A model generated the notes under the pieces. That model was not told where the DNA came from, did no database searches, and worked only from the letters and a program-made list of their open reading frames with translations. Below, piece by piece: positions 2,675 to 49,719 of a stretch of DNA of 64,000 nt; position 1 is the first letter of the stretch; each line of letters starts with the position of its first letter. A program made the translations under genes and the position numbers. Source of the DNA: Microtetraspora sp. NBRC 13810 (GTDB taxonomy: Bacteria > Actinomycetota > Actinomycetes > Streptosporangiales > Streptosporangiaceae); contig NZ_BSRQ01000008.1 in the NCBI RefSeq assembly GCF_030268685.1, positions 173,127 to 237,126 of the forward strand. The letters run 5' to 3'.

Positions 2675-3625
2675 CTACGTCGTGGCGGTGGGGCGTGGGG
2701 GTCTGGGGAAGGGGATGTGCTGGAGGTCGTGGGCGAGGGTGATCGGGCCGGGGTAGGTTGTGGCCGCCTCGGCGAGGAAACGGGGCTCGTCGGCGGCGTC
2801 GTAGCGCTCGGAGACGTGGGTCAGGACGAGGTGGCCGGCGCCCGCCCGGGCGGCGACGTGCCCGGCCTGCGCGGCGGTGAGATGGCCGTAACGCTCGGCG
2901 AGCTCCGCCTCGGCGGACAGGAACGTCGACTCGATGACCAGCAGGTCGGCGCCCTCGGCGAGGGCGTAGGCGTTGTCGCAGAGCCGGGTGTCCATGACGA
3001 AGGCGAAGCTCTGCCCGGGACGCGGCTCGCTGCACTCGTCCAGGGTGACGGTGACGCCGGCCGGGGTGGTGACGACGCCCTCGCGTTGCAGCCGGCCGAC
3101 GAGGGGGCCGTGCACGCCGAGCGCGCCGAGCCGGTCGGGGAGCATGCGGCGCCCGCCGGGCTCGTCGAGGCGGTAGCCGTACGTGTCGATGGAGTGGGAC
3201 AGCGGGCGGGCGGTGAGAGTGAGCGGGCCGGCGGGCAGGCTGGGGCGCGGTCCGGTGAGCGGATGCTCGGTGACGACGGCGGTGTCCAGGAAGGAGGTGG
3301 CGTGGCGCAGGCGGCGGTAGTACTCCTCGCCGGTCGCGGGGTAGGCGACCGCGATCGGGTGCGGCACGCCGTCGCGGGCGACGCGCTGGATGACGCCGGG
3401 CAGGCCGAGGGAGTGGTCGCCGTGCAGGTGGGTGACGCAGATCCAGGTGAGGTCGTGCGCGCTCACCCCGGCCAGCAGCATCTGCCGCTGCGTCCCCTCG
3501 CCCGGGTCGAACAGGAACCCCTCGCCGTCCCAGCGCAGGAGGTAGCCGTTGTGGTTTCGGTGCCGGGTCGGCACGGCGCTCGACGTGCCGAGGACGAGAA
3601 GTTCGCGAAGGGACACGGCCGCCAT
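2675..3625 (-). CDS. rnz: Ribonuclease Z
   Basis: 316 aa from ATG 3625; the frame is open further upstream, but this start puts the family's [12 protein letters not shown] at residue 9, as usual. RNase Z is a metallo-beta-lactamase-fold endonuclease that trims tRNA 3' trailers in the cytosol. The HxHxDH zinc motif is HLHGDH at residues 66-71. Later metal-ligand motifs are also visible: [11 protein letters not shown] (Asp) and [10 protein letters not shown] (His). Length is normal for the family. The 5' end faces the divergent ogt-like gene; the 3' end is convergent with the DUF3800 gene across a repeat-filled spacer. Confidence 0.88.
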
Positions 3626-25493: not shown

Positions 25494-26249
25494 GTGCGAA
25501 CCGACCAGCGGGCCGACGAGCGCGCGACAGCCGAGGCGAGGCTGCGCGCGCTGCGCGGGCACCCGTCTCCAGCGCGCCCCTTCGAGGAGGACGACCGGCC
25601 CGGCGGCCGTGCCCTGGCGCCCCCGGGGTCCCGGCCGTCCCTGGCGGGGTTGCGCCGCCTGGTCGCCGACGCGGATCCCGGCGGGCCGCGGCTGAAGGTC
25701 CTCGTCGCGATCGGGGTGCTGGCGGCCGCGGTGGGCGGGCTCTACGCCTGGCGCGCCCAGCCGGTCGCCGAGCCGCTGCCTCCGCCGCCGGCCGCCCCGC
25801 CCGTCGTCGCCCGGCCCTCGGCCTCCCCCTCTCCGGAGGTCACCGTGCACGTGGCGGGGAAGGTCCGGCGGCCCGGCGTGGTCACCTTGCCCGGCGGGGC
25901 CAGGGTCAAGGACGCGATCGCGGCGGCCGGCGGCGCGAAGAAGGCCGCGGCGACCGGCACGCTCAACCTGGCCCGCCGGCTGATCGACGGCGAGCAGATC
26001 GTCGTCGGCGCCCCGGGTGGCGGTTCTCCTCCGCCCCTGGCCGACCCCATGACCGGCGCCGTGGTGGACCTCAACACCGCGACCGTCGAGCAACTGGACC
26101 TGCTCCCCGGCGTCGGAGAGGTCCTCGCCCGCCGCATCCTCGACTACCGCGAGGCCAACGGCGGCTTCCGCAGCGTGGAGCAGCTCAACGACGTCTCCGG
26201 CATCGGCGACAGCAAATACGCCGACATCAAAGACAAGGTCCGGGTGTGA
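25494..26249 (+). CDS. comEA: ComEA-type DNA-binding protein
   Basis: 251 aa, GTG start. An N-terminal cytosolic region, one membrane segment (about residues 68-86), and a Pro-rich linker are followed by an SLBB domain (VTVHVAGKVRRPGVVTLPGGARVKDAI). A C-terminal helix-hairpin-helix pair ends it (VDLNTATVEQLDLLPGVGEVLARRILDYRE, VSGIGDSKYADIKD). ComEA binds incoming DNA outside the membrane during uptake. TAGCCT just before the GTG could be a -10 of a leaderless transcript. It overlaps comEC by 4 bases. Whether the strain is naturally competent is unknown; the pair is conserved in many actinobacteria not known to take up DNA. Confidence 0.92.
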   Translation: MRTDQRADERATAEARLRALRGHPSPARPFEEDDRPGGRALAPPGSRPSLAGLRRLVADADPGGPRLKVLVAIGVLAAAVGGLYAWRAQPVAEPLPPPPAAPPVVARPSASPSPEVTVHVAGKVRRPGVVTLPGGARVKDAIAAAGGAKKAAATGTLNLARRLIDGEQIVVGAPGGGSPPPLADPMTGAVVDLNTATVEQLDLLPGVGEVLARRILDYREANGGFRSVEQLNDVSGIGDSKYADIKDKVRV

Positions 26250-29002
26250 CCGCCGGAGCGGGCCGGGCGTCCCCCGTGGAGGGAGGGCCCCTCGGTCACG
26301 CGCCGCATCTCCTGCCGCCCGCGCTGGCAGCGTGGGGGAGCGCCCTGGTGCTGCTCGGCTGCTCCGCGGCCACCGGGGCGGTCGTGGCGGGACTCTGCGC
26401 GCTGGGAGCGGGCGCGCTCCTGGCGTCCGAGCGGCTCGGCGGGCGGCGGGGAGCCTCGGGGCCGCCTGGCGGGGGAGCGCCGTCGCGGCCCGGTGGGAGG
26501 GCGTCGAGGCGTCCGGGCGCGCCGCCGGGCCGGGGGACTTGGAGGCGATTGGGCGCGCTGTCGGGTCTGGGGGTTTCGAGGCGGCTGGGTGGGCTGTCGG
26601 GCCTGGGGGCTTTGAGGGGGTGCGGACCGGGCGTGGGCGGCGGGTGGCTGCGGGTGGGCGCTGCGGTGCTGGCGTGCGCGGCGGCCGCGGCCGCGTCGGT
26701 GGCGTTCCGGGTGCACGCCGTCGGCACCGGGCCGGTCGCCGACGCGGCGCGCGCCAACCGGCCGGTGAGCGCCGAGATCGTGCTCACCGGCGATCCACGG
26801 GTGCTGCCGCCGAAGGGCACCGGGTTCCGCGGGGAGAGCGTGGTCGCCGACGCCAGGATCGAGGCGCTGGAGACCGCCGGGGCGAGGTACGCGGTGCGCG
26901 CCCCGGTGCTCGTGTTCGCCTCGGGAGGCGCCTGGCGGGGGCTGCTGCCCAGCCAGCGTCTCAAGGTGAGCGGACGGCTGGCCCCGGCTGAGGAGGGCGA
27001 GCTGCTCGCCGGAGTGCTGCTCGTGCGCGGCACACCGGAGACGCTCACCCTGCCCAGCGCGATCCAGCGGGCGGCGGGCGTGCTCCGCGCCGGGCTGCGC
27101 TCGGCGTCCGACGTGCTGCCGCCGGACCAGCGCGGGCTGCTCCCCGGCCTCGTCGTCGGCGACGTCTCCCGGATGGACGAGCACGTCAGGGCCGACTTCC
27201 GCACCGCGGGCCTGGCGCATTTGACCGCGGTCAGCGGCACCAATCTGTCGATCGTCGCGGGCGCCGCCCTGGCGCTCGGCCGCCTCGGCGGGATGCCGCT
27301 GGCCGTCAGGGCCGCGCTCGCGGCGGTCGCGATGGTCGCCTTCGCCGTCGTCGCGAGGCCCTCGCCGAGCGTGCTGCGGGCGCTGTTCATGGGCCTGGTC
27401 GCGGCGGTCGCGCTCGGCACCGGCCGCTCCAGGGACGGCGTGGCGGCCCTGTCGGTCACGGTGCTCGGGCTGGTCCTCTTCGATCCCGCCCTGGCCCGTT
27501 CGTACGGCTTCGCCCTGTCCGTATGCGCCACCGGCGGGATCCTGCTGCTGGCGCCGCGCTGGCGGGACCGGATGGCCGTGCGGCTGCCCCGCTGGCTGGC
27601 CGAGGTCATCACCATCCCGCTCGCCGCTCAGGCGGCCGTCACGCCGGTGCTGGTGCTGCTGGCCGGGCAGCTCTCGCCGGTGGCGGTCCCAGCCAACCTG
27701 CTCGCGGGTCCCGCCGTCGCCCCCGCGACCCTGCTGGGCTTCGCCGCCACGCTGCTCGCCCCGGTCCACCTGGAGGCGGCCCGGCTCCTCGTCCGCCCGG
27801 CCGGGCTCGCCACCGGGTGGATCATCTGGGTGGCATCGCGAGCCGCCGCACAACCGGCGGCGTCCGTGCCTTGGCCCGGCGGCCTGGCGGGCCTGGCCCT
27901 GCTCGCCGTGGCGGTCGCGCTCCTGGTCGCCGTGCTGCGCCATCCCGTCGGCCGCCGCCTCGGTCCGGCCCTGGCCTGCGGGGCCCTCGTGGCCGTCTTC
28001 GCCCTCGGCCCGGCGGTCTCGTCGTGGCCGCCCGGCCGCTGGCTGCTCGTCGCCTGCGACGTCGGGCAGGGCGACGCGCTCGTGGTCGCCGCCGGTCCGG
28101 GCCGGGGCGTCGTGGTGGACGCCGGGGCCGATCCCTTGCTGGTGGACCGCTGCCTGCGCGACCTCGGCGTCCAGGAGATCCCGCTGCTCATCCTCACCCA
28201 TCCGCATGCCGACCATGTGGGAGGGCTGGCGGGCGTCCTACGCGGCCGAACCGTCCACGCGGCGGCCGTCGGCCACCCCGCCCCCGGCACCCCGGAGGGG
28301 AACCTGCCCGCTTCCGGCACCACAGACCCGAGCCTGCCCGCTTCCGGCACCACAGACCCGAGCCTGCCCGTTTCCGGCACCACAGACCCGAGCCTGCCCG
28401 TTTCCGGCACCACAGACCCGAGCCTGTCCGCTTCCGGTATGGCGAGCGGGAGCCTGCCCGCTTCCGGCACTGCGGAGGGGAGGCTGTACGCGGACCTCGC
28501 CAGGCGCGGCGTGCCAGTGACCCCGGTGACGGCGGGTACCCGCTGGCGCTTCGGTCCCTCCGACATCACGGTCCTGGCCCCGTACGGCGACGCCGTGCCC
28601 GCCGGAGCCGGGGAGGGCGCCCAGGCGAACAACGGGAGCGTCGTCGTGCACGTGCGCTGGGCGTCCGGTTCGGCGCTCCTGAGCGGCGACATCGAGACCG
28701 AGACCCAGGCGGAGCTGGTGCGCCGCGGCGTCCCCCGGGTCGACGTCCTCAAGGTGCCGCACCACGGCGCGGCCCGGCAGGATCCCGCCTTCCTGGCGGC
28801 CACCGGGGCCCGCGCGGCACTGATCAGCGTCGGAGCCGGCAACGACTACGGCCACCCCGCCCCCGTCACGCTCGCCCGGCTCGGCCTCCAGGGCACCCGG
28901 ATCCACCGCACCGACCTGCTGGGCGACATCGCCGTCGTCGACGAGGGCGACGGGCTCGCGATCCTCACCCGCGGAACGGTCCATGATCTGGCCAACTCTT
29001 GA
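26246..29002 (+). CDS. comEC: ComEC/Rec2 DNA uptake channel protein
   Basis: 918 aa, GTG start overlapping the comEA stop. The N-terminal hydrophobic segments are split by a Gly/Pro/Arg-rich stretch (residues about 65-130). An extracytoplasmic OB-like domain follows (about 165-275), then the Competence core (AGLAHLTAVSGTNLSIVAGAAL) with several membrane helices to about residue 590. The C-terminal metallo-beta-lactamase domain has VACDVGQGDAL, LTHPHADHVGG, LSGDIE and KVPHHGA. A 60-residue insert of 10-residue repeats interrupts this last domain. All catalytic motifs are intact, so the gene looks functional. Confidence 0.92.
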   Translation: MTAGAGRASPVEGGPLGHAPHLLPPALAAWGSALVLLGCSAATGAVVAGLCALGAGALLASERLGGRRGASGPPGGGAPSRPGGRASRRPGAPPGRGTWRRLGALSGLGVSRRLGGLSGLGALRGCGPGVGGGWLRVGAAVLACAAAAAASVAFRVHAVGTGPVADAARANRPVSAEIVLTGDPRVLPPKGTGFRGESVVADARIEALETAGARYAVRAPVLVFASGGAWRGLLPSQRLKVSGRLAPAEEGELLAGVLLVRGTPETLTLPSAIQRAAGVLRAGLRSASDVLPPDQRGLLPGLVVGDVSRMDEHVRADFRTAGLAHLTAVSGTNLSIVAGAALALGRLGGMPLAVRAALAAVAMVAFAVVARPSPSVLRALFMGLVAAVALGTGRSRDGVAALSVTVLGLVLFDPALARSYGFALSVCATGGILLLAPRWRDRMAVRLPRWLAEVITIPLAAQAAVTPVLVLLAGQLSPVAVPANLLAGPAVAPATLLGFAATLLAPVHLEAARLLVRPAGLATGWIIWVASRAAAQPAASVPWPGGLAGLALLAVAVALLVAVLRHPVGRRLGPALACGALVAVFALGPAVSSWPPGRWLLVACDVGQGDALVVAAGPGRGVVVDAGADPLLVDRCLRDLGVQEIPLLILTHPHADHVGGLAGVLRGRTVHAAAVGHPAPGTPEGNLPASGTTDPSLPASGTTDPSLPVSGTTDPSLPVSGTTDPSLSASGMASGSLPASGTAEGRLYADLARRGVPVTPVTAGTRWRFGPSDITVLAPYGDAVPAGAGEGAQANNGSVVVHVRWASGSALLSGDIETETQAELVRRGVPRVDVLKVPHHGAARQDPAFLAATGARAALISVGAGNDYGHPAPVTLARLGLQGTRIHRTDLLGDIAVVDEGDGLAILTRGTVHDLANS
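28304..28483. repeat. 30-bp minisatellite inside comEC
   Basis: Six head-to-tail 30-bp units, the first four nearly identical, encode LPASGTTDPS-type decapeptides. They lie in the metallo-beta-lactamase domain between the HPHADH motif and the next strand. The unit is a multiple of three, so copy-number change keeps the frame. Confidence 0.95.
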
Positions 29003-29898: not shown

Positions 29899-30873
29899 AT
29901 GGCGACGACACCCGCACCCGTGACCCTGGTGATCGGCGACGAGGAGCTGCTCGCGGAGCGGGCCGCGAACGCGGTGGTGGCCGCCGCGCGGGAGGCCGAG
30001 CCCGGCACGGAGGCCCACGACCTGAGCGGTTCCAAGGTCGAGCACGGAGAGCTGACCAGACTGGCCTCGCCCTCGCTCTTCGGCGATAGATCCGTGGTGG
30101 TGATCAGGTCGGCCCAGGACCTCACGAAGGACGTGATCGCCGAGGTCGTCGCCTACGCCGCCCGCCCGTCCGAGGACATATGGCTGGTCCTCCTCCATCC
30201 CGGAGGCGTCAAGGGCAAGGCCCTGGTGGACGGGGTGAAGAAGGCCGGCGCGCACGTCGTCACCGTGTCCAAGATGACCAAGCCGGGGGAGCGGCTCGAC
30301 TTCATCAAGACGGAGATCAAGCGGGCCGGCCGTACGATCGCGCCGGACGCGGCGCAGGCCCTGCTCGACGCGGTCGGGAGCGACCTGCGCGAGCTGGCCG
30401 CGGCGTGCGGCCAGCTCGTCTTCGACACGCCCACCGACAAGAAGGGCATCGGCGCGGCGGATGTCGCGCGATACCACCGCGGCCGCGCCGAGGTCAGCGG
30501 TTTCACCGTGGCCGACGCCGCCGTCGAAGGCCGCCTGGCCGACGCGCTGGAGCAACTACGGTGGGCGCTGTCCACAGGCGTGGCCCCGGTGCTCCTGGTC
30601 AGCGCGCTTGCGGGCGGGCTGAGGTCGCTCGCGAAGGTGGGCGGGGCCCCCAGAAACGTACGCGGCGGTCAGCTCGCCGGTCAGCTCGGCATGCCGCCCT
30701 GGAAGGTCGACCGGGTGAAACGCCAGCTCAACGGCTGGGGCCCGACGGGCATCGCGCGCGCCATCCAGGCCGTCGCCGTCGCCGACGAACAGGTCAAGGG
30801 CGGCGGCGCCGACCCCGCCTACGCCCTGGAACACGCCGTCCAAACCATCGTGGCCAGCCGCACCGGCCGCTGA
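29899..30873 (+). CDS. holA: DNA polymerase III delta subunit
   Basis: 324 aa from ATG 29899. Delta opens the beta sliding clamp within the clamp loader. The N-terminal nucleotide-binding-like domain starts TLVIGDEELLAERA, with LASPSLFGDRSVVVIRSAQDLT typical of HolA. The central and C-terminal helical domains (LLDAVGSDLRELAAACGQL, GVAPVLLVSALAGGLRSLAKV, WKVDRVKRQLNGW) complete the family pattern. It sits in the usual place downstream of comEC, although two accessory genes intervene. The last 17 codons and stop are duplicated just downstream. Confidence 0.94.
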   Translation: MATTPAPVTLVIGDEELLAERAANAVVAAAREAEPGTEAHDLSGSKVEHGELTRLASPSLFGDRSVVVIRSAQDLTKDVIAEVVAYAARPSEDIWLVLLHPGGVKGKALVDGVKKAGAHVVTVSKMTKPGERLDFIKTEIKRAGRTIAPDAAQALLDAVGSDLRELAAACGQLVFDTPTDKKGIGAADVARYHRGRAEVSGFTVADAAVEGRLADALEQLRWALSTGVAPVLLVSALAGGLRSLAKVGGAPRNVRGGQLAGQLGMPPWKVDRVKRQLNGWGPTGIARAIQAVAVADEQVKGGGADPAYALEHAVQTIVASRTGR

Positions 30874-30964
30874 CCCCCACCTGTCATCGCTCACGCCCTG
30901 TAACAGGCCGTCTAGACCATCGTGGCCAGCCGCACCGGCCGCTGACCCCCACCCGTCATCGCCC
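30821..30964. repeat. 72-bp tandem duplication spanning the holA stop codon
   Basis: Unit 1 (30821-30892) encodes the last 17 residues of HolA and its TGA. Unit 2 (30893-30964) repeats it, with 33 bases identical around ACCATCGTGGCCAGCCGCAC. Substitutions in unit 2 create in-frame TAA (30901) and TAG (30913). The period is exactly 24 codons. After unit 2 about 40 bases remain before the HxlR stop. Confidence 0.93.
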
Positions 30965-31003
30965 ACGACCGGCCGCGGCGGTGTTCGGCGTGCTCGGGGT
31001 CGT

Positions 31004-31528
31004 TCACGCCGATGCGGAGGGTCTCCTCTGGTGGCGGGAGGCGATGAGCGGGCCGAGGACGTGGGTGCCGGGGCCGATGCGACCGCCGGGGCCGGGGAGC
31101 TGGGTGGTGTTGTCCACGGTGAGGGGACCGCCGCAGTGGGCGCAGGTGGCCACGGGCGTGGTGTCCTGATCGCAGGTCAGATGATGGATCCGGGCGGGCG
31201 GCCCGGCCGGGCCCGCGTACCAGCGGTCGCCCCAGTTCATCAGGGCGAGGAGCACGGGGTAGAGCTCCTTGCCTTTTTCCGTCGCCTGGTAGTGCTCGCG
31301 GGGCGGGTGCTCCTGGTACCGCTCGCGGGCGAGAACGCCCTCCTCGACCAGCCGGGCCAGCCGTGCCGCCAGGATCTTGCGCGAAATCCCGAGATCGTTG
31401 GCCAGGTCGTCGAACCGGGTGATCCCGCACAACACGTCACGCATGATCAACGCGGTCCACGCGTCCCCGAACAGATCGGTGGCGCGGGCGATCGAGCAGG
31501 CCACGTCCGCGAGCGAGGTTCTGGTCAC
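31004..31528 (-). CDS. HxlR-family transcriptional regulator
   Basis: 174 aa, GTG start. The HxlR winged helix occupies residues 10-105: CSIARATDLFGDAWTALIMRDVLCG, RFDDLANDLGISRKILAARLARLVEEGVL, YQEHPPREHYQATEKGKELYPVLLALMNWGDRW. The C-terminal extension carries CAHCGG, which with Cys at THLTCDQD may bind metal; this is typical of the longer HxlR members. It is divergent to a methyltransferase gene. Two near-identical operators lie between them, so it probably represses both. Confidence 0.91.
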   Translation of the reverse strand: MTRTSLADVACSIARATDLFGDAWTALIMRDVLCGITRFDDLANDLGISRKILAARLARLVEEGVLARERYQEHPPREHYQATEKGKELYPVLLALMNWGDRWYAGPAGPPARIHHLTCDQDTTPVATCAHCGGPLTVDNTTQLPGPGGRIGPGTHVLGPLIASRHQRRPSASA

Positions 31529-33151: not shown

Positions 33152-33685
33152 AGCCCACCCCTCCGAACCCTCGCCACCCACATCACCGAACCCGCCACCC
33201 CCGCCGAACATGCGGCCTCCGCCAAACCAGCCGCGCCCGCCGATCGTGAGGCCTCCGCTGCGCCGGCCAGCTCGGCTGAGCGTGCGGGCTCTGCCGAAGC
33301 ACTCACCCCTACCAAACCGGCCGCCCCCACAGAACATGCGGCCTCCGCCCAACCAGTCACCTCCGCCGAGCGTGAGGCCTCCGCCGCACTGGCCACCTCC
33401 GCTGGGCGTGAGGCCTCAGCGGAAGTACTCACCCCTGCCAAACCCGCCGCCCCCCGCCGACGTGCGGCTTCCGCCGAACCGGCCATCGCCGCCCAACCTG
33501 CGGCCTTGGTAGAACCTACGGACCTTGCAGGACGTGGGGCGCTTACAGAACTTGCGCCCCATGCAGTTCCAATCGCCCCAAACGAACCCAGCGCCCCAGC
33601 CGAATCCGCCCCCTCTACCGGACCGACAGCCCCTACCGAACCCGAGGCCATCATCGACCCAACGCCCCCATCGGCCCCGCCTGGC
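33152..33685. repeat. Repeat-filled spacer with a 126-bp minisatellite
   Basis: This 534-base spacer between the two ATPase genes has at least two and a half units of period 126 bp: copies begin at 33206, 33332 and about 33458 (markers TGCGGCCTCCGCC at 33211 and 33337, TGCGGCTTCCGCC at 33463). Further degraded Gln/Pro-coding repeats run to about 33650. Because 126 is divisible by three, several frames stay open on both strands (for example 33148-33654 on the minus strand), but their composition is a pure Ala/Ser/Glu or Pro/Arg repeat and I do not call them genes. Confidence 0.85.
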
Positions 33686-37323: not shown

Positions 37324-37378
37324 CGCCGCCTCCTCGGCGTGCAGACGCCCACCACACGCTCCCGCCTCCCACAACGGG

Positions 37379-37600
37379 CCTCCCACGTCTGGCAACCGCC
37401 GGCCCGCGTGTCACGACCGACCTCCCGCCTTTTACGGTCGGCGGCCCGCGTGTCGCAACTGGCCTCCCGCCTTCCGCTACCGGCCTCCCACGTCTGGCGA
37501 CCGCCGGCCCGCGTGTCGCGACCCGCCTCCCGCGTTCCACGGTCGCTGGCCCGCGTGTCGCGACTGGCCTCCCGCCTTTCACGGTCGGTGGCTAGTGGGA
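37379..37600. repeat. 42-bp minisatellite between two permease genes
   Basis: Units start at 37379, 37421, 37484, 37526 and 37568 (42 bp each), with a 21-bp half unit at 37463. Each begins CCTCCC and most contain GGCCCGCGTGTCGCGAC. They alternate between two subtypes (CCTCCCACGTCTGG and CCTCCCGCCTT). The array fills most of the 343-base spacer 37324-37666; no gene is assigned there. Confidence 0.9.
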
Positions 37601-47587: not shown

Positions 47588-47640
47588 CCCCGCGAGGCCC
47601 TCACCGCCAGGGGCGGACACCGGGCCGCCCCCGCACGACA

Positions 47641-47806
47641 CCACGGCGGTCCGCCCCGAGCACGGCCGCCGCCGTCACGGGCGCCACGGCGGTCCTCACC
47701 GTGCCACGGCGGTCCGCCCCGAGCACGGCCGCCGCCCTCACGGCGCCAGGGCGGTCCTCACGGCGCCACGGTGGTCCGCCCGAGTACGGCTGCCGCCTGC
47801 GCGCGG
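47641..47806. repeat. 63-bp repeats duplicating the 3' end of the membrane-protein gene
   Basis: Copies begin at 47641, 47704 and 47766 with CCACGGYGGTCCGCCC. The third is the coding 3' end of the minus-strand gene (last residues and TGA at 47758-47760). The two others lie beyond the stop in the spacer and carry one extra G that breaks the frame. Period 63 then 62 bases. Confidence 0.9.
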
Positions 47807-49719
47807 TAGGCGGTCGTGTCGAGGTCGTGGGCCTCCAGGTGGTCCAGCATGGCCTGGAGGAGGCGGCGCTCGATCAGCTGGGCGTACTTGCCCGCGTCCA
47901 GGCTCCGCATGAGGCGGGCGGCGTCGCGTTCGGCGCCCAGCTCCCGCAGGCCGGCCCGGGCGCCGTAGGGGTAGACGGGGAAGGCGGACGGGCTCGCCCG
48001 GCGCGCGTTCCTGCCCAGCAGCGCCGCCCCGGCGCGTGCCAGGCGGAGCGGGGCGAAGAGCACGTCCGTCACCAGGTCCACCCGGATCCGCCGGACGGCC
48101 GCCAGCGCCACCGCGCGCTGCGACATCGACGGCAGCAGATCCACCACGTGGAACTCCTCCCGTACCGGCGGCAGCACCGTCGTCACACACCGCAGGTGCA
48201 GCATCCGCCCCTCCACCGCCACATGCACGAACGCGGAGACGACCGCCTCCTGGTCCTCCGCGGGAGCTATCAGCGCCCCGGCCGGGTTGCGCGTCTCCGG
48301 GCTCTCCGGACCGACCGTGATCCGCTGGTAGTGCCGGATGCCGCCCTGCGGGTGCCTGACGGCGGCGTCCACCGTGTCGGGCACGGCGACGAAGTACGGC
48401 AGGCCGGTGTGCGCGTCGATCAGCGGGTGGCTCTGGCCGGGGAACGGCCGGGCGGCGGCCTGCCGGTGCGGGCGTACGTACGTGCCGCGGGCCACGACAT
48501 GGTCGGAGACGTGCAGCCGGTCCAGGCGCCGGGCGGGATGGTCCACCGCGTCGCGCATCTCGAGCAGGCGCCGGCGCAGGAAGCGGTGCGTCTCCACCGG
48601 GTCCACCCAGGTGACCGGCACGGCCGAGCCCTCGCCGTACCCGCCGCGCGGCCGGTCCAGTTCCACGGCGATCGACCACGTGCTCTCGACGTCGCCCGCG
48701 CCGACGAAGGGATCGTCACCGGCGTACAGCGTGACGTTCCCCCACTGCGCCTGGCCGACGTAGTCCAGCCGCTCCCGCAGGGCCTGCGAACCCTCGACCG
48801 GCCCGCGGACCGCGCCCGGCCCGAGCGTACGGGCCAGCGTCAGGTAGCCCGTGATGCGGTGCGCCACGGCCACGCCGAACGCGGCCAGCAGGAACAACGC
48901 CGGCACGATCACCGTCCAGCCCGGCGTGGCGCGGGCGAAGAAACCGCCGAAGACCGCGTCCACCGCGACGCCCAGCGTGGCCGACACCGTGCCGGTGAGC
49001 GCGATCCCCGCCCAGACGGCGAGCAGCACCCGCCACGCCACGTGCCCGCGCCGGACCTCCGGCAGCCCGAGCAGCGCGAGCGGCAGCAACGCCACCACCC
49101 AGGCCACCCCAACCGACCACGACAGGAGCAACGCCAGCAGCAGCAACACCGTCACCGTCGCGTCGCGGAACACCGCCAGCCGCTCGGCCCGCAGCCCGTG
49201 CACCAGCACCGGCACCGCGTCCACCCCGCCCAGCGACGGCGCGACCGCCCGGAACCGGTCACCGAGCAACTCGCGCAGCACCCGGTGCCTGAACCCGTCG
49301 TCGAGATGGACGCCCGCCGCCAGGTACCGGGTCGGGTTGGCCAGCGGGGGAGCCGGCGGCGCCTGCTGCTCCTGCGGCGGCGAGAACCGCGGACCCTGCG
49401 GCGGATGCTCGCCCCCCGCGGGCGGCGGGAACGCGTGCTCCGTGTCCGGGGGCGGGAACGCGTGCTCCCCCGTGCCCGAGGGCGGAAGGTCGCTGGCGGG
49501 AGGCGGAAAGTGGCCGCCGGGAACGCCGGCGGACGCCCGGTACCGGTCGTGCGGGTCGGCCCCGGTGGGGTGGGTGTGCGAGTCGCCAAGGGACGGTTCG
49601 GCCTCGGCGGGGTGGCTGCGCGGATCGTCGTGGGACGGGGCCGCGTCGCCGGTGGGCAGGGGGCGGCCGGTGGAGGAGGGGTGGGCGACGGTGCGGTCGT
49701 CCGGTTCCGGTGTATGCAT
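47758..49719 (-). CDS. Membrane protein of unknown function with Pro-rich N-terminus
   Basis: 653 aa from ATG 49719 (GGAGAG just upstream); the frame is open farther upstream. Residues 1-140 are His/Pro/Asp-rich and disordered. Residues 141-200 look like a small folded domain (NPTRYLAAGVHLDDGFRHRVLREL). Four or so hydrophobic helices occupy about 200-310 (TVTVLLLLALLLSWSVGVAWVVALLPLALLGL, VLLAVWAGIALTGTVS, FLLAAFGVAVAH). A large cytosolic domain of about 300 residues follows, with beta strands (NVTLYAGDDPFVGAG, VHVAVEGRMLHLRCVTTVLPP). I do not recognise a named family. Its 3' end is repeated downstream. Confidence 0.78.
   Translation of the reverse strand: MHTPEPDDRTVAHPSSTGRPLPTGDAAPSHDDPRSHPAEAEPSLGDSHTHPTGADPHDRYRASAGVPGGHFPPPASDLPPSGTGEHAFPPPDTEHAFPPPAGGEHPPQGPRFSPPQEQQAPPAPPLANPTRYLAAGVHLDDGFRHRVLRELLGDRFRAVAPSLGGVDAVPVLVHGLRAERLAVFRDATVTVLLLLALLLSWSVGVAWVVALLPLALLGLPEVRRGHVAWRVLLAVWAGIALTGTVSATLGVAVDAVFGGFFARATPGWTVIVPALFLLAAFGVAVAHRITGYLTLARTLGPGAVRGPVEGSQALRERLDYVGQAQWGNVTLYAGDDPFVGAGDVESTWSIAVELDRPRGGYGEGSAVPVTWVDPVETHRFLRRRLLEMRDAVDHPARRLDRLHVSDHVVARGTYVRPHRQAAARPFPGQSHPLIDAHTGLPYFVAVPDTVDAAVRHPQGGIRHYQRITVGPESPETRNPAGALIAPAEDQEAVVSAFVHVAVEGRMLHLRCVTTVLPPVREEFHVVDLLPSMSQRAVALAAVRRIRVDLVTDVLFAPLRLARAGAALLGRNARRASPSAFPVYPYGARAGLRELGAERDAARLMRSLDAGKYAQLIERRLLQAMLDHLEAHDLDTTAYRAQAAAVLGRTTVAP

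Follow-up and report, generated by a model that had tools for sequence, protein, structure and literature searches.

A 72-bp tandem duplication across the holA stop codon of Microtetraspora sp. NBRC 13810, very probably produced by replication slippage

The end of holA in Microtetraspora sp. NBRC 13810 carries a 72-bp tandem duplication that includes the stop codon. It is very probably the result of a single slippage event private to this genome, neutral in effect and with a second copy that is decaying. The array was studied within a 64,000-nt stretch of contig NZ_BSRQ01000008.1 (the window), where it covers the tail of holA and runs into the 130-nt gap before a convergent HxlR-type gene (Table 1). 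The holA product matches TIGR01128 (NCBIfam) at 186.8 bits, where the cut-off is 80, and also Pfam PF21694; holA was matched in 199 of the 201 genomes of the family. Its TGA stop lies at 30871-30873.

Structure of the array and divergence of its copies

The whole array extends over 30816-30967 and was reported by TRF with period 72, 2.1 copies, a score of 255 and no indels. A direct-repeat search paired 30816-30887 with 30888-30959 at 90% identity and a spacing of 72. The two copies adjoin directly and align without gaps, 65 of 72 positions being identical. Sequence inspection, repeat search and TRF thus agree on a real tandem repeat. Around the holA stop the self-match scored 57, and it did not exceed 8 once the downstream DNA was shuffled. 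An assembly artefact is unlikely, because the copies differ by 10%. The first-pass annotation had the right region and a 72-bp unit including the TGA, and these stand. Its extent of 30821-30964 was too short, 8 nt of a third copy are present as well, and the unit encodes the last 18 residues of HolA, not 17, followed by 14 nt of flank.

Table 1. Features of the holA region in the window and duplications across the holA stop at other loci
Feature	Coordinates	Strand	Description
holA, DNA polymerase III subunit delta	29899..30873	+	Intact gene for 324 aa, with its stop in copy 1
Copy 1 of 72-bp unit	30816..30887	+	Final 18 holA codons, the TGA and 14 nt of 3' flank
Copy 2 of 72-bp unit	30888..30959	+	Noncoding, decaying; 90% identity to copy 1
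Partial third copy, 8 nt, CGCCCACG	30960..30967	+	Original 3' flank; alignment at shift 72
HxlR-type regulator gene, convergent with holA	31004..31528	-	PF01638, 81.4 bits, and gene call
holA-stop duplication, L050			Period 48
holA-stop duplication, L056			Period 61, about two 30-nt units
holA-stop duplication, L009			Period 31
holA-stop duplication, L017			Period 35
holA-stop duplications, L036 and L236			Period 26 each
holA-stop duplication, L033			Period 39, 13-nt units
holA-stop duplication, L063			Period 20
holA-stop array, L262 (G203), another species			Period 34, neat, multi-copy

Read in the phase of holA, copy 2 translates as AHAL*QAV*TIVASRTGR* and contains the two in-frame stops described in the first pass, TAA at 30901-30903 and TAG at 30913-30915. 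The direction of the base changes was judged by comparison with 48 relatives, all of which have G at 30829 and C at 30841; a T at both equivalent positions of copy 2 creates its TAA and TAG. Position 30843 is an A in copy 1, and copy 2 has a G there that is shared with 37 of the 48 relatives; judged from this alignment, the A is likely a derived synonymous change in copy 1. Most base changes are found in copy 2, at sites constrained in copy 1. The combination of nonsense changes in copy 2 and a synonymous change in copy 1 indicates that, of the two copies, only the first evolves as a gene; the suggested decay of copy 2 is therefore supported by nonsense changes at otherwise invariant sites. 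At 30820, copy 1 agrees with all 48 relatives in having T, and both copy 2 and the third piece have C, from which we infer an original difference between the junction repeats and not a later mutation. The copies share an identical run of 38 nt in their 3' half (p ~0.03 for random placement of the seven differences), which could hint at conversion or at a second slippage event; we give it little weight.

Origin by slippage and absence from relatives

Short tandem duplications in bacteria arise through slipped-strand mispairing (replication slippage) between short direct repeats. The holA array resembles such duplications in being a single gapless duplication with a short, imperfect flanking direct repeat and a second copy free to decay; it shows no substantive difference and merely spans a stop codon. 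Its three junctions, CGCCTACG, CGCTCACG and CGCCCACG, are alike at 6-7 of 8 positions, CGCCCACG (30960-30967) and CGCCTACG (30816-30823) sharing 7 of 8 bases, and the match at shift 72 extends 8 nt past copy 2. This direct repeat is imperfect and is only suggestive of slippage, the pair 30816-30823 and 30960-30967 being the likely site.

Before the event, imperfect 8-nt repeats of the form CGCC(T/C)ACG would have stood 72 nt apart, start to start, one in the last codons of holA and the other in the convergent intergenic gap. Replication slippage between them would have given one private tandem duplication. Because the stop lies inside the duplicated piece, the ribosome halts in copy 1 as before and HolA is unaltered; the event would therefore be selectively neutral, a reading to which the overall pattern also points. 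Copy 2 would have become untranslated 3' sequence that later gathered mutations, two of them nonsense.

No 72-bp duplication was found among the holA loci of other species examined, including the nearest relatives compared (L002 and L227/L033, ~87% protein identity), so that the unit is single-copy in relatives at these loci. The first-pass annotation had proposed slippage at the gene end and held that an identical two-copy structure in all related strains, with selection on copy 2, would instead mean an old, functional element. When copies were counted across relatives, the two-copy structure was found in none of those examined; this absence, the gapless single duplication and the 8-nt junction repeat support slippage. 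In the plasmid collection, the only match was to one Nonomuraea chromosome, at 75% identity and in the holA tail only. In some relatives the holA stop is crossed by other, different tandem duplications, with periods of 20 to 61 (Table 1). Considering that their units and periods differ, these are mostly separate events.

Tandem arrays at actinobacterial gene boundaries

We surveyed tandem arrays in ~2.4 Mb from six actinobacterial genomes, with genes predicted by a simple and crude codon-usage caller. Stop ends were counted where the noncoding DNA beyond them measured at least 60 nt (1052 in total), and expected counts were derived, with edge correction, from how often purely intergenic arrays occur. 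All 113 intragenic arrays had a period divisible by three. Start-spanning arrays were depleted ~11-fold, with 5 at 1314 starts against 56 expected (Poisson p ~4e-18). Stop-spanning arrays, with 29 at 1052 ends, were somewhat below the 44 expected (p ~0.01); either some constraint acts at the 3' boundary or the crude gene caller makes this boundary indistinct. A second detector found arrays at 40 of 1047 stops versus 4 of 1312 starts (p=8e-11). Shuffled controls yielded a single array with this detector, and the shuffled noncoding DNA control of the survey gave nine altogether.

The stop was located within the first unit in 28 of the 29 stop-spanning arrays. Whatever its period, a tandem duplication across a stop codon keeps that stop in the first copy, and tolerance therefore does not require a function. 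Since the protein is unchanged at any period, multiples of three are not significantly enriched at these arrays (14/29, p=0.11; 16/40 with the second detector, p=0.40). The preserved reading phase, to which the first pass attached meaning, does not bear that weight: the 24-codon period of the holA array is a one-in-three coincidence. In the Microtetraspora sp. NBRC 13810 genome, 12 stop-spanning arrays were found in the ~0.8 Mb sampled, which by scaling suggests that the whole 9-Mb genome likely holds about a hundred or more. The holA array is an ordinary member of this common kind. Our literature search retrieved nothing on stop-spanning duplications as such.

Arrays scored as intergenic were also enriched in periods divisible by three (77/129, p ~1e-9), an excess that could come from overlooked genes, from pseudogenes or from a genuine bias. 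Genome G011 (200 kb sampled, L153-L162) contained two intragenic, two intergenic and no stop-spanning arrays, unlike the other five genomes, and may differ in slippage rate or repair.

The window contains further tandem arrays. One of 35- and 45-bp units (2514-2672) crosses the stop codon of gene 1569-2528 and extends towards that of a convergent gene at 2675-3625. A 63-bp array (47634-47797), the third stop-spanning one in the window, runs over the stop codon of minus-strand gene 47758-49719. A 30-bp, 5.6-copy array (28303-28470) lies in frame inside the large plus-strand ORF 26246-29002, which looks ComEC-like by eye, and encodes repeats of a 10-residue motif around ASGTTDPSLP. Two arrays with periods of 126 and 105 bp, both divisible by three, are located at 33185-33493 and 37359-37582, within or close to long gaps that precede minus-strand genes. 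They could be left over from coding repeats or belong to gene starts that were called too short.

Alternative explanations

The holA 3' end might be a special slippage hotspot in Streptosporangiaceae, its GC-rich tail ACCGGCCGCTGA either giving many chance direct repeats or stalling the fork. Such a hotspot would be compatible with slippage and additive to it, but we consider it unlikely. Distinct holA duplications occurred in 7 of 77 other loci, versus 40 of the 1047 surveyed gene ends (p=0.036) and one of 143 other gene ends within those loci (p=0.003), in a comparison that is post hoc, since holA was picked because of this very array. The newly added holA loci alone did not replicate the excess (2/30 vs 40/1047, p=0.33), the two controls disagree (0.7% versus 3.8%) and the two period-26 cases (L036 and L236) may share ancestry. 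A first comparison of holA with other ends relied on a gene caller and a strict tandem criterion that overlooked several loci. The mild excess at holA is thus unproven. A broader proposal, which we also consider unlikely, is that stop-spanning slippage duplications keep extending the 3' ends of genes in actinobacteria with large, GC-rich genomes, with much 3' intergenic DNA consisting of decayed gene tails and holA as a preferred site.

Alternatively, copy 2 could be a functional 3' element (a terminator, a processing site or a spacer between holA and the HxlR-type gene) that was duplicated and then kept. Its position in a convergent gap and the identity of the 3' halves over 38 nt would fit. 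However, when both strands were folded, the copies showed no more RNA structure than shuffles (z 0.25, -0.60, -1.01). A promoter and terminator scan of the array found no site, an Rfam search with the array matched no family, so that neither a stable hairpin, a T-run nor a covariance-model match points to an intrinsic terminator or structured RNA, and the unit is absent in all other species examined. Retained function is accordingly very improbable, and as far as the sequence can tell, copy 2 most likely does nothing detectable.

The other first-pass suggestion, a shifted stop codon, would have holA formerly ending in copy 2 and leaving a fossil tail when its stop moved upstream; it is almost certainly wrong. 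The 24-codon period keeps phase, and the final residues of copy 2 and its TGA are those of copy 1, but HolA of relatives ends at the copy 1 position (usually ...SRTGR-stop), a duplication including the stop puts the first stop in copy 1 as soon as it arises, so that a longer protein would need prior loss of the copy 1 TGA, and other stop-spanning arrays lack an enrichment for multiples of three.

Comparison with named repeats and significance

Within the literature searched, the nearest named kind is formed by the mycobacterial VNTR, MIRU and ETR loci, such as the rnc-fpg1 repeats, which are intergenic tandem repeats of tens of base pairs present in some lineages only (PMC2734929). The duplication at holA shares with them its unit size, its intergenic placement, its actinobacterial host and its restriction to a lineage. 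In contrast to those loci, it has only two diverged copies and a unit that stems from the end of holA itself, is not dispersed, and has no known polymorphism or expression effect. Elsewhere in its own genome, a search for dispersed copies of the unit, as expected for MIRUs, retrieved only a 25-nt partial match.

By itself, the holA array is ordinary and of little significance. The survey, for its part, is a clean illustration of how selection acts on slippage: arrays within genes stay in frame, those spanning stops are nearly free and those spanning starts are removed. A stop-spanning duplication might also be used as a small internal control for mutation, in which copy 1 is constrained and copy 2 records mutations.
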